In this document: one piece after another, positions 60,846-64,000 of the stretch
How the letters are laid out: each line of letters starts with the position of its first letter
Numbering within the stretch: the first letter of the stretch is position 1
Source: Halomonas denitrificans
GTDB taxonomy: Bacteria; Pseudomonadota; Gammaproteobacteria; Pseudomonadales; Halomonadaceae
Direction: 5' to 3'
Assembly: GCF_003056305.1 (NCBI RefSeq)
Contig: NZ_PYVX01000002.1
Coordinates: 372,001-436,000 of the forward strand
DNA: 64,000 bases
Translations under genes and position numbers: made by a program
Notes under the pieces: model-generated
What the model was told of the DNA's origin: nothing
Database searches by the model: none
The model's input: the letters and a program-made list of their open reading frames with translations, nothing else

Positions 60846-63248
60846 ATGACGGAGCAGCATTCGCCGAGACGTTTCTGGCTGGGCGGCAAGCGTGCCGCGG
60901 AACAGGACCGCTTCTTCCGCGAGGCCCTAGAGCCCCTGGGCTGGCGGGTGGGGGACGCCCAGCAGTGGGACGCCGCCTGGGTCACCGGCATGCCGGAGGC
61001 CGGACAGTTCCGCCGGGTCTCGCCGACGCGCCGGATGAACCACTTCCCGGGCAACGCGGCGCTCACCGTCAAGAGTCGCTTGCACGAGAGCCTCGCCGCC
61101 CTGCGCGAGCGTCTTGTCGAGAGCTACGGGCCCGATCATGACCTCGCCCGGCGCCTGGCCTTCTTTCCCCGTGCCTACGTGATGCCCGACGACTACCATG
61201 CGCTGCAGCAGGCCGCCCGGTCGCGTCCCGAGCAGCGCTGGATCCTCAAGCCCACCAACGCCTCCAAGGGCAAGGGCGTGCGCGTGCTCAGCGACGTCGC
61301 CGAGGCGCCCCTGGCCCGGGACTGGCTGGTGCAGGAGTACCTGGCCAACCCCCACACCATCCGCGGCCACAAGTACGTGCTGCGCCTCTACGTGCTGATC
61401 AGCTCGCTGGCGCCGCTGCGGGTCTACCTCTACCGCCAGGGCTTCGCCAAGCTGGCCTCGGAGCCCTGGGACCCCGACGATGCCGACAACCCCTTCAGCC
61501 AGCTGACCAACCCGGACATCAACGCCCTGAACGACCGCGCCGAGGTGCCGGTGGAGTTCATCGATCTCGACCGCTACCGCCGCTGGCTCCGGGATCAGGG
61601 GCACGACGACGCGGCCCTCTTCGCCCGCATCGAGGACCTGGTGGCGCTCACCGCGATCTCCGCCGTGGACGCCATGCGCGCCCGCACCGCCGAGGCCGGC
61701 GCCGACCCGCGGGGCTGCTACGAGCTGCTGGGGCTCGACTGCCTGGTGGACGACACCCTCACGCCCTGGATCCTCGAGTGCAACCTGAGTCCCTCGCTCG
61801 GCATCTGCGCCGCCCCGGAGTCGGGCGGGCGGGTCGAGGAGGCCGTCAAGGGGGGCCTGGTCCGGGACCTGGTGACGCTGCTCGACATCCCCGGCCAGGC
61901 GGCGAGCCAGCAGGCGGGCCGGGACGAGGCCGCGGCGCTCCTCGCCGAGGCCGAGGCGGAGCGGGCGCGCGCCGGCGGCTTCCAGCGGCTGCTGCCGGCC
62001 GCCGAGCCGGCGCGTTATCTGCCCTGTTTCACGCTGCCGAGCCTGGCCGACTGGCGGCTGGCCGCGGGGCTCGCAGGGCGGGCGCTGCCGGCCCCGCGCC
62101 TCGCGCGGCGTCATGTCGCGGAGATCGTCGACGGGGAGCGCCTCGCCCTCTACGACACCCGTCGCGGCGATCTCTACCGGCCCAACGACACGGCAGCGCT
62201 GATCTGGCTGCTGGCGACCGAGGGGCTCGACATCGAGGCCATCGTCGAGGCGCTGGCGAGCGCCACGAAGGAGGCCAGCAACGAGCGCACGACCGTTCAC
62301 GAGCGCCTGCGCCGGGAGGTCTGGACCACCCTGCACGACTGGTGCCGCGTCGGCCTGCTCCGCCAGGCGGGCGAGGGGGACGCCGCGGACGCGACCGCGC
62401 CGGCCGCCGAAGCGCCCGAGGCGCCCTCCGATCCGCACGCCTTCGCGCTGCGTCTGGCGGGGCAGGAGTGGGCGCTGGAGGTGGCGAGTGCCCCGGCCAT
62501 CGCGCGGCTCGTGGCCGGCTTCGGCGCGCGGCTGGCGCCGTTCGACGGCGAGGCGGCGAGCGGGGGGCCGCGGCTTCGGGTACTGCGCGAGGCGGCGGGC
62601 TATGCGCTGGCCGAGGGCGATCGACTGGTTGCCGCGCGGCTGACCCTGGACCGGCTGGTCCCCACCCTGACCGCCCACCTGCTGCGCCGGGTCGCGAGTC
62701 CCGACCGGCCGGTGATCGACGCGCCCCTGCTGGTCGGGCCCGACGGCACCGGCGTGCTCTGCCTGTTCCCCGAGGGCGCGCCGCGCCGCGACCTGCTAGT
62801 GCGGCTGGGCGCGGCCGGCGGCGGTCGGCTGACCCGCGGCGTGCGCCTGGACCTCGCGGATCCGACGCGGGCCGAGCTGCTGGACGCGCCCTTGGACTCG
62901 CCCTTGGAAAAGGCCGGCGCGGCGCCGGCGTCGACCCGCACGGCGAACGTGACCCTGCGCGGCGTGCTGCTGGCGGGCGACGCGCACGGCGATACGCCCC
63001 TGGCCCCGGTCGCCATGCTGGAGGCGCTGGGCACGCTGCTGCCGCACTGCCTGGCCGGGGAGGAGCGGCTGACGGGACAGGGCGTGGCGGCCCTGGGCGA
63101 CTGGCTCGCCACCCTGGCCCTCGGCGCCGTCGCGATCGACTCGAAAACGGAGAGTGAGGCGCCGTCGAGCGCGGCGCTGGTCGCCTGGCTGGCCGAGAGC
63201 ATTGCCCCCGACGCCCCCGTCCCCCGCGCCGCGGCGGCGGGGGAGTAG
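60846..63248 (+). CDS. Fusion: TTL-type ATP-grasp, PqqD-like RRE and HPr-kinase-like domains
   Basis: The 800-residue protein joins three parts. Residues 1-345 match tubulin-tyrosine ligases: WILKPTNASKGKGVRVL, VQEYLANPHTIRGHKYVLRLYVLI, QLTNPDIN, and the metal/ATP end ELLGLDCLVDDTLTPWILECNLSPSLG. After an Ala-rich linker, residues about 420-510 look like PqqD (HVAEIVDGERLALYDTRRGDLYRPND, then TAALIWLLATEGLDIEAIVEAL), the peptide-recognition fold of RiPP enzymes. Residues about 530-800 resemble HPr-kinase-related domains, but the P-loop region (LVGPDGTGVL) lacks the Lys-Ser pair. AGGAG precedes ATG 60846. A small peptide gene follows. A modifying enzyme for that peptide is the inference. Confidence 0.8.
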   Translation: MTEQHSPRRFWLGGKRAAEQDRFFREALEPLGWRVGDAQQWDAAWVTGMPEAGQFRRVSPTRRMNHFPGNAALTVKSRLHESLAALRERLVESYGPDHDLARRLAFFPRAYVMPDDYHALQQAARSRPEQRWILKPTNASKGKGVRVLSDVAEAPLARDWLVQEYLANPHTIRGHKYVLRLYVLISSLAPLRVYLYRQGFAKLASEPWDPDDADNPFSQLTNPDINALNDRAEVPVEFIDLDRYRRWLRDQGHDDAALFARIEDLVALTAISAVDAMRARTAEAGADPRGCYELLGLDCLVDDTLTPWILECNLSPSLGICAAPESGGRVEEAVKGGLVRDLVTLLDIPGQAASQQAGRDEAAALLAEAEAERARAGGFQRLLPAAEPARYLPCFTLPSLADWRLAAGLAGRALPAPRLARRHVAEIVDGERLALYDTRRGDLYRPNDTAALIWLLATEGLDIEAIVEALASATKEASNERTTVHERLRREVWTTLHDWCRVGLLRQAGEGDAADATAPAAEAPEAPSDPHAFALRLAGQEWALEVASAPAIARLVAGFGARLAPFDGEAASGGPRLRVLREAAGYALAEGDRLVAARLTLDRLVPTLTAHLLRRVASPDRPVIDAPLLVGPDGTGVLCLFPEGAPRRDLLVRLGAAGGGRLTRGVRLDLADPTRAELLDAPLDSPLEKAGAAPASTRTANVTLRGVLLAGDAHGDTPLAPVAMLEALGTLLPHCLAGEERLTGQGVAALGDWLATLALGAVAIDSKTESEAPSSAALVAWLAESIAPDAPVPRAAAAGE

Positions 63249-63316
63249 CGGGGCCCGAGCATTCGGCGCCGCTGCGGCGACGCCGATGACGGGGTCGGCC
63301 CCCTGGCCGGCCCGCG

Positions 63317-63347
63317 GCATGGCGACACGCACGGCGTGTCGCCATGC
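63317..63347 (+). other. Strong hairpin between the fusion gene and the peptide gene
   Basis: A perfect 14-bp stem (63317-63330 with 63334-63347) with a three-base loop, midway in the 169-bp gap, no T-run. It could be a processing or partial termination site that lets the peptide be made in excess. Confidence 0.6.
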
Positions 63348-63417
63348 GATTCGAACGCGGAGGTCGAGCGCGTATCGACGCTGCGGATCGACATTGCCAA
63401 TCGAGGAGGTCATGACC

Positions 63418-63687
63418 ATGACACTGCACGACGAGAAACGTCGCCACCTGCTGGGCCGGCTCGGTCGACAGCTCGGCTACACGGCACCGGCGCTGCTGCT
63501 GGTGGCGAGCGGCGCGGCCTTCCAGGCCGTGGCCGGCGAGCCCGCCGCGACGCCGGAGACCGTCGGCGGCTACACCAGCGGCCAGGAGGCGTCCCTGATG
63601 CTGGCCGAGGCGCACGCCGAGGCCGAGGGGGAAGCGGAAGGCGAAGCCGAGGGTGAAGCCGAAGCCGAGGCCGAGGCCGAGGGGTGA
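63418..63687 (+). CDS. Small peptide with YxxPxL leader motif and Glu-rich tail (candidate RiPP precursor)
   Basis: The 89-residue product has a basic start (DEKRRHLLGRLGRQLG), a hydrophobic stretch containing YTAPAL (residues 21-26), and after a short linker a tail of (EA/EG) repeats: residues 64-88 hold 12 Glu. YxxPxL is the motif bound by the PqqD-like B1 protein in lasso-peptide leaders. ATG 63418 lies eight bases after GAGGAGG; ATG 63412 is also in frame. The hydrophobic stretch could instead be a signal peptide, ending near AVAG. A bulged hairpin follows the stop (63714-63745). Not a family I know. Confidence 0.75.
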   Translation: MTLHDEKRRHLLGRLGRQLGYTAPALLLVASGAAFQAVAGEPAATPETVGGYTSGQEASLMLAEAHAEAEGEAEGEAEGEAEAEAEAEG

Positions 63688-63795: not shown

Positions 63796-64000
63796 CATGT
63801 CCACACCCGCATCCCTGCCATCACGCCACGCCCCGGGCCTCATCGAGGAGAACCGGCAGGCGCTGGCCCAGCTGAGGCGCCTGCTCGACGACCTGGCCCC
63901 CGAGGCCTATCGACGGGTCTTCGGCGTCCAGGGACGTCACACCCTCGGCAAGCACGTTCGCCATATCATCGATCACTACGAGGCGCTGATCGACGGTCTC
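63796..64000 (+). CDS. DinB-like protein, N-terminal part (runs off the window)
   Basis: About 68 residues are visible: a short leader, then LIEENRQALAQLRRLLDDLAPEAYRRVFG and GKHVRHIIDHYEALIDGL. The His-x-x-His-x-x-x-H pattern in the second helix fits the DinB/YfiT metal-binding four-helix bundle. ATG 63796 follows GGAG with ten-base spacing. It is 108 bases after the peptide gene and may belong to the same operon. Confidence 0.6.

Follow-up and report, generated by a model that had tools for sequence, protein, structure and literature searches.

What does a ligase of the tubulin tyrosine ligase (TTL) family act upon in a bacterium, when it is fused to a domain of the kind that reads leader peptides and is followed by a gene for a small Glu-rich peptide? 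This question is raised by a 64,000-nucleotide stretch of the Halomonas denitrificans genome (G000:C6:372001-436000 of a 3.76 Mb assembly), hereafter the window. On its forward strand the window encodes an 800-residue fusion (60846..63248) of a TTL ligase, a lasso-type RiPP recognition element (RRE; RiPP, ribosomally synthesized and post-translationally modified peptide) and a degenerate HprK/PEPCK-like domain, and just downstream an 89-residue peptide (63418..63687). A preliminary description of the window suggested a RiPP-type system, in which the fusion binds the peptide by its leader and ligates amino acids to its tail.

Our analysis confirms the observation as a whole: the window holds a conserved system rather than an isolated locus. 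We consider it fairly probable that this is an RRE-guided system for protein-tail modification, in which a leader-docked ligase adds amino acids, most likely glutamate, to a product that is exported.

A TTL-type ligase fused to a lasso-type RRE

The TTL domain occupies residues 61-346 of the fusion (61026..61883, + strand; Pfam E 2.7e-51). In an alignment of 35 homologues, the lysine-rich ATP-grasp loop KPTNASKGKG (residues 135-144; 61248..61277, +) varies only slightly, and the motif ECNLSPSL (residues 311-318; 61776..61799, +) is identical in 35/35, together with the leucine ahead of it (LECNLSPSL). The 800-residue chain and its two TTL motifs, KPTNASKGKG and LECNLSPSLG, are thus present as first described. 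The ATP-grasp residues K135, E311 and N313, which we take to be catalytic, are invariant in the same 35 homologues, suggesting that the domain is catalytically competent.

A search of the PDB with the profile of these homologues returned TTLL6 (E 2.5e-52), TTLL7 (5.8e-44) and TTLL11 (1.6e-25), and after a gap 5vlq (1.1e-13), which we take to be the glycylase TTLL3, and TTL (1.5e-12). The ligase domain is therefore nearer to the glutamylases than to TTL or 5vlq by a wide margin. The assignment to the TTL family stands, whereas tubulin tyrosine ligase proper is ruled out as the nearest relative. Three positions of TTLL6 presumably separate initiating from elongating glutamylases; at these, the fusion family has S-K or A-R, and L, and the TTLL6 chain with A-R and I scores 181.6 bits against 177.2 for the chain with C-Q/H. 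A division of labour between initiators and elongators is described for the TTLLs, TTLL4 and TTLL5 being among the initiators, in a review section that does not state the residues (PMC9117372).

TTL exceeds the Pfam cut-off in 42 of 378 sampled genomes of the phylum, nearly always as a weak match to a short part of the domain. A match below 1e-50 occurs in the two fusion genomes only, the next best being 8.5e-13, which raises the question of the origin of the ligase.

The second domain is a PqqD-type RRE (residues 417-507; 62094..62366, +), supported by Pfam, by fold and by sequence matches in the PDB. Pfam PqqD matches the window's fusion at residues 434-505 (E 4.8e-7) and all 35 homologues at E ≤1 (best 2.3e-12), while the NCBIfam lasso PqqD model matches 28/35 (best E 3.1e-6) and TIGR04353, the PqqD family of HPr-rel-A systems, 13/35 (best E 0.0019). 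The RRE profile has three matches in the PDB at E ≤10, all of them lasso RREs: TbiB1 (4.1e-5), TfuB1 (4.7e-5) and a lasso PqqD chaperone (1.2). The modelled residues 417-507 match the structure 6jx3_B at 1.6 Å over 84 residues (Z 11.6). The region at about residues 420-510 that had been called PqqD-like thus adopts the PqqD/RRE fold in the model, and we assign residues 411-512 to the RRE. In lasso systems, this type of RRE serves precursors with YxxPxL leaders (PMC10368454, in part). Further PqqD domains are encoded elsewhere in fusion genomes, and also in the fusion-less genomes G020 and G063.

Precursors with a shared leader and an acidic tail

Two in-frame ATG codons, at 63412 and 63418, could start the downstream peptide. 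The starts of homologues correspond to 63418, and a ribosome-binding site, GAGGAGG (63403..63409, +), lies 8 nt ahead of 63418 and 2 nt ahead of 63412; we therefore set the length at 89 residues. All 14 fusion relatives in the named genome collection, which belong to Halomonas, Billgrantia or Franzmannia, have such a peptide just downstream, and the peptide gene can be taken as real.

The genomes of the named collection overlap those of a Halomonadaceae set, so loci were de-duplicated on the basis of the C-terminal 300 residues of the fusion, giving 54 distinct loci with the window's own locus excluded. Not counted among the 54 are L056 and L057, TTLs that lack an RRE, and L109, which is truncated; L079, L080 and L110 gave no BLAST match. 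The 54 loci span three families: Halomonadaceae, f183 of the same order and f157 of the same class. A short leader-plus-tail precursor lies on the same strand less than 1 kb downstream of the fusion in 52/54, so homologous loci do keep the peptide gene. The count comprises 49 loci, with L077 entered by hand, plus L078, L101 and L103; the pattern search had missed these three and the short precursor of L077, all of which other searches show. In the two exceptions (L065 and L083, from G171 and G175), the fetched stretch contains a gene for a leader-repeat-cytochrome c protein, and the short precursor is present on another contig.

Three kinds of precursor share the leader: short ones with QEAPLMLAEAHAE-like segments, short ones with an SDV..GYYM segment, and cytochrome c proteins with CxxCH. 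In the window, the leader or export-signal-like segment covers residues 1-39 (63418..63534, +), with YTAPAL at 63478-63495. The reading of YTAPAL as the leader motif of lasso systems holds in the form Y-xx-P-x-L for 48 of 62 non-redundant precursors and fails in its strict form for the rest, some of which replace the Leu by Met, Ile or Phe. The presence of Pro in 62/62 is no evidence, because the search patterns demanded a Pro.

The acidic (E-A/G)n tail of the window's precursor covers residues 68-89 (63619..63684, +). Across the 62 precursors, the tails are composed of 832 E, 488 A, 442 G, 39 S and 29 P, and successive Glu residues are exactly two residues apart in 719/770 cases. Synonymous codons are mixed across the repeats while this spacing is kept, which indicates that selection acts on the protein and rules out a repeat artefact at the DNA level. 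Cys is found in 2/54 short precursors, so the modified residue cannot be Cys in most of them.

The leader family tracks the enzyme

In 45 of 201 Halomonadaceae genomes, TTL is matched strongly and over almost its whole length (E at most 3.9e-47). The leader was found in 45/45 of these and in 2/156 of the others (Fisher 6e-43, a value that ignores phylogeny). The 44 foreign loci of strong-TTL genomes all align to the fusion across the RRE. The two leader genomes without a strong TTL match are G119, with a cytochrome form (E 2e-19), and G041, with a marginal match (8.6e-4). The gene for the leader-repeat-cytochrome c protein of G119 lies at L112 (G119:C85) and is perhaps a relic.

Outside Halomonadaceae, the leader was found in f157 (3/3) and in G687 of f183. 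The leader search found none in the genomes G394 and G488, whose TTLs lack an RRE, nor in G871. The TTL proteins of the first two (L056 and L057) have 367 and 373 residues and no PqqD; the third (L120) has an 875-residue frame. In G021, the leader was not found, and the truncated fusion frame shares its open reading frame with a remnant of DinB (L109), which is suggestive of a deletion that removed the cassette. One of the 45 genomes, G039 (L108), has an in-frame TAG within the fusion gene beside an intact precursor.

Because the association extends over three families and includes unlinked precursors, mere synteny is argued against.

Export signals and cytochrome c forms

The leader resembles an export signal as well. 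A hydrophobic stretch is followed by AxA in 59/62 precursors, the median net charge ahead of it is +3, and RR occurs within the first 15 residues in 51/62; these features were scored by a simple script, not by a trained signal-peptide predictor.

Of the 45 TTL genomes, 33 encode a leader-repeat-cytochrome c protein. Among the matches examined, nine of the remaining twelve show short forms only, and G008, G149 and G190 each have a single leader match. The cytochrome form of the window's own genome (G000:C6:444491-445171, or L111:10491-11171) lies outside the window, about 9 kb away, and matches SoxA-TsdA_cyt-c of Pfam (E 7.9e-7). c-type cytochromes need the periplasm for haem attachment. A leader of this appearance, which also stands in front of c-type cytochromes, makes export the probable fate of the protein products. 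The idea of a RiPP-type system thus survives in its leader and RRE parts, but a pathway to a small natural product of the classical kind is improbable. Few bacterial RiPPs are said to use a signal peptide as leader; bufferins and oxazolins are described examples (PMC12452194, in part).

A simpler account would make the precursor an ordinary exported acidic protein and let the ligase act elsewhere or produce a free peptide or metabolite, the genes being merely linked. It could draw on the signal-peptide-like leader and the frequent AxA, but it has to contend with a leader family that follows the enzyme even where the genes are unlinked and across three families, with an enzyme that carries an RRE of the type reading such leaders, and with a tail that resembles known TTLL substrates. 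We regard this account as improbable. Even less credit goes to a role of the fusion mainly as chaperone or export escort, in which the RRE and the TTL domain would hide the leader and the acidic tail and leave no lasting modification. The coincidence of an RRE with a signal-like leader would suit such a role, and for bufferins the masking of a signal peptide by partner binding has been speculated upon (PMC12452194, in part); the invariant ATP-grasp residues, however, suggest catalysis.

The third domain and the neighbouring genes

The C-terminal domain of the fusion (residues ~522-793; 62409..63224, +) is HprK/PEPCK-like by fold. In a second AlphaFold model, of residues 411-800 (mean pLDDT 76.5, pTM 0.74), this part is fairly good, and it matches PEPCK with Z 8.0 over 268 aligned residues and the HPr kinase 3tqf with Z 7.6 over 129 aligned residues at 3.5 Å. 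The Z values are middling, and the top non-RRE rows nearly all belong to the HprK/PEPCK superfamily. By sequence, the domain has no convincing relative in the PDB (two matches, E 1.4 and 1.9). The P-loop pattern is GxxGxGK[ST]; the stretch where it would be expected is not conserved and lacks K[ST] in the aligned homologue rows. An active HprK kinase is therefore unlikely, and we read the domain as a scaffold, probably a pseudokinase, in agreement with the earlier impression of a degenerate kinase-like end. In the bsf lasso system, the RRE BsfB1 strongly stimulates the HprK-like kinase BsfK, the precursor having a YxxPxL motif (PMC10368454, in part).

Downstream of the precursor, a DinB_2-like gene starts within the window and runs past its end (63797..64000, +; Pfam E 1.2e-8). 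A same-strand gene of this kind is present in 51/54 distinct loci, and in 49 it lies within 1.6 kb downstream. DoxX is matched in 12/54, on the same strand every time, and immediately follows the fusion in the loci sampled from f157, g2, g12 and g20. The DinB-like and, in some lineages, the DoxX genes belong to the cassette. A rhodanese family lies on the opposite strand in four groups (one member tested by Pfam); together with the SoxA/TsdA-like cytochrome it hints at sulfur redox chemistry, no more. Just past the window, on the opposite strand, are genes for a DUF3047 protein, a small Cys-containing protein and an extracytoplasmic function (ECF) sigma factor (L111:2454-3971), and genes related to this group recur near the cassette in several genera.

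Between the fusion and the precursor lies a perfect 14-nt inverted repeat with a 3-nt loop (63317..63347, +), possibly an attenuator or a processing site. The RNA fold of 63310-63362 has -35.4 kcal/mol and z -5.0. Among seven relatives, the 8-nt arms or core of this hairpin were found in L004 only, and we do not count it as a conserved RNA element of the system. An anti-phage defence system was also considered and rejected, PADLOC giving no match at E ≤0.01 for the fusion, the DinB-like protein or the cytochrome.

A proposed mechanism and its weaknesses

We infer a series of steps which, by falling certainty, are leader binding, export, ligation, gamma-linked glutamate and an HprK-like scaffold. 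In the cytoplasm, the RRE would bind the YxxPxL-like part of the leader and thereby bring the flexible tail to the ATP-grasp site. The leader would also drive export and be cut near AxA, so that the product would work in the periplasm. The ligase would join amino acids to the tail at the expense of ATP. The added amino acid may be glutamate, placed on the gamma-carboxyl of internal tail Glu residues to give branched, strongly anionic tails; such a linkage would correspond to the initiating reaction of TTLL4/TTLL5-type enzymes. The HprK-like domain may be a scaffold or regulator, and the DinB-like and DoxX proteins accessory. It is tempting to speculate that the tails serve to bind metal or sulfur species close to a cytochrome in the periplasm, which is only a guess.

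Several observations weigh against this model. An ordinary signal peptide could account for the leader, whose Tyr is not universal, being His, Ser or Val elsewhere and Pro in L007. PqqD falls under the Pfam cut-off in L053 and L055 (f157) and in L077 (f183), and a genome search with PF05402 gave no PqqD match in G355. The co-occurrence counts take no account of the relatedness of the genomes, and G119 keeps its cytochrome precursor without a TTL match. In the AlphaFold model of the whole fusion, the TTL part is poor (mean pLDDT 54.4), so the ligase assignment rests on sequence. Finally, two positions shared by TTLL6 and TTLL7 are changed in 35/35 homologues, which have Val where the KFDLR motif has Asp, and Lys in place of the Arg in GLAR (GLVR in TTLL7). 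Nucleotide or donor binding may therefore differ, and since these replacements depart from a plain glutamylase, the glutamate donor is a prediction.

These two fixed substitutions lend some weight to the same architecture with another donor, in which glycine, tyrosine, another amino acid or a mixture would be added to the tail. So do the 8/62 precursors with an encoded C-terminal Tyr after the acidic tail (GAY 3, GTY 2, SGY 2, GGY 1; L053, L054, L055, L014, L092, L093, L095 and L098). alpha-Tubulin likewise ends in Tyr. On the other side, glutamylases are well ahead of the other PDB relatives, and C-terminal addition is impossible for the cytochrome precursors, whose repeats are internal. Such repeats fit side-chain rather than C-terminal ligation, and C-terminal tyrosination is thus not the general reaction. 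We consider a different donor unlikely, if worth keeping in mind, and retain leader-guided ligation, with glutamate as the predicted donor.

Nearly as probable, in our judgement, is that the cassette represents a new class of leader-directed modification, in which an RRE-guided bacterial TTLL-type enzyme builds branched side chains of glutamate or other residues on exported E-x-E-x tails, including those of c-type cytochromes, and in which one leader serves both as RRE ligand and as signal peptide. If so, a TTL-type ligase would work in an RRE-guided pathway, and the tubulin-tail code would have a counterpart in bacteria, one that is written ahead of export. Besides bufferins, there would be a further case of a leader with a second role in export, and periplasmic cytochromes could acquire branched polyanionic tails by this route. 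TTLL chemistry could then be tested in a small pair of bacterial proteins amenable to co-expression, with a leader that is possibly transferable.

Comparison with known systems

The preliminary description knew of no system with these parts. Likewise, we found no published description of such a TTL-RRE system in the open-licence literature, a scope in which others may be missed. The words "tubulin" and "TTL" do not occur in the main texts of the RRE-Finder paper (PMC7470986), a 2025 RRE survey (PMC12710340) or a graspetide survey (PMC8939145).

Lasso systems with a B1 RRE and an HprK-like kinase, such as bsf, share the B1-type RRE, a YxxPxL-like leader and an HprK-like domain with the fusion cassette (PMC10368454, in part). 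The cassette differs in its TTL ligase, in precursors that carry a long acidic tail where lasso precursors have their core, and in having its domains on one chain. The lasso B2 peptidase family (PF13471) is absent from the window's own genome and from 4/5 other genomes tested; the match in G012 lies on contig C18, the fusion on contig C24. We reject a lasso peptide system, as the own genome lacks the B2 family.

Bufferins and oxazolins have signal-like leaders and repeat-rich tails, and their clusters often contain DoxX, a neighbour of the fusion in some lineages (PMC12452194, in part). In contrast to bufferins, MNIO (PF05114) was found here in 0/6 genomes tested, and the shortage of Cys in the short precursors sets them apart as well; an MNIO/bufferin system is rejected. 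With no MNIO in these genomes and no B2 family in its own, the cassette is neither a lasso nor a bufferin system. HPr-rel-A systems likewise place a PqqD-type domain beside an HprK-like one, but the TIGR04353 match is weak, and here a single chain includes the TTL ligase and is accompanied by acidic-tail precursors.

The TTLL polyglutamylases resemble the fusion in a ligase domain related over its length, TTLL6 being the closest, and in a substrate that is Glu-rich, repetitive and flexible. The fusion differs in being bacterial, in a predicted RRE docking on an N-terminal leader, in substrates that are probably exported and include no tubulin, and in the fixed Asp-to-Val and Arg-to-Lys changes. 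TTLL5 glutamylates the Glu-Gly repeats of RPGR-ORF15 while docked on a separate basic element of the substrate, and docking through a separate substrate element is a further likeness (PMC13052805, in part). Among substrates, the Glu-Gly repeat region of RPGR is the nearest parallel to the acidic tails of the precursors.

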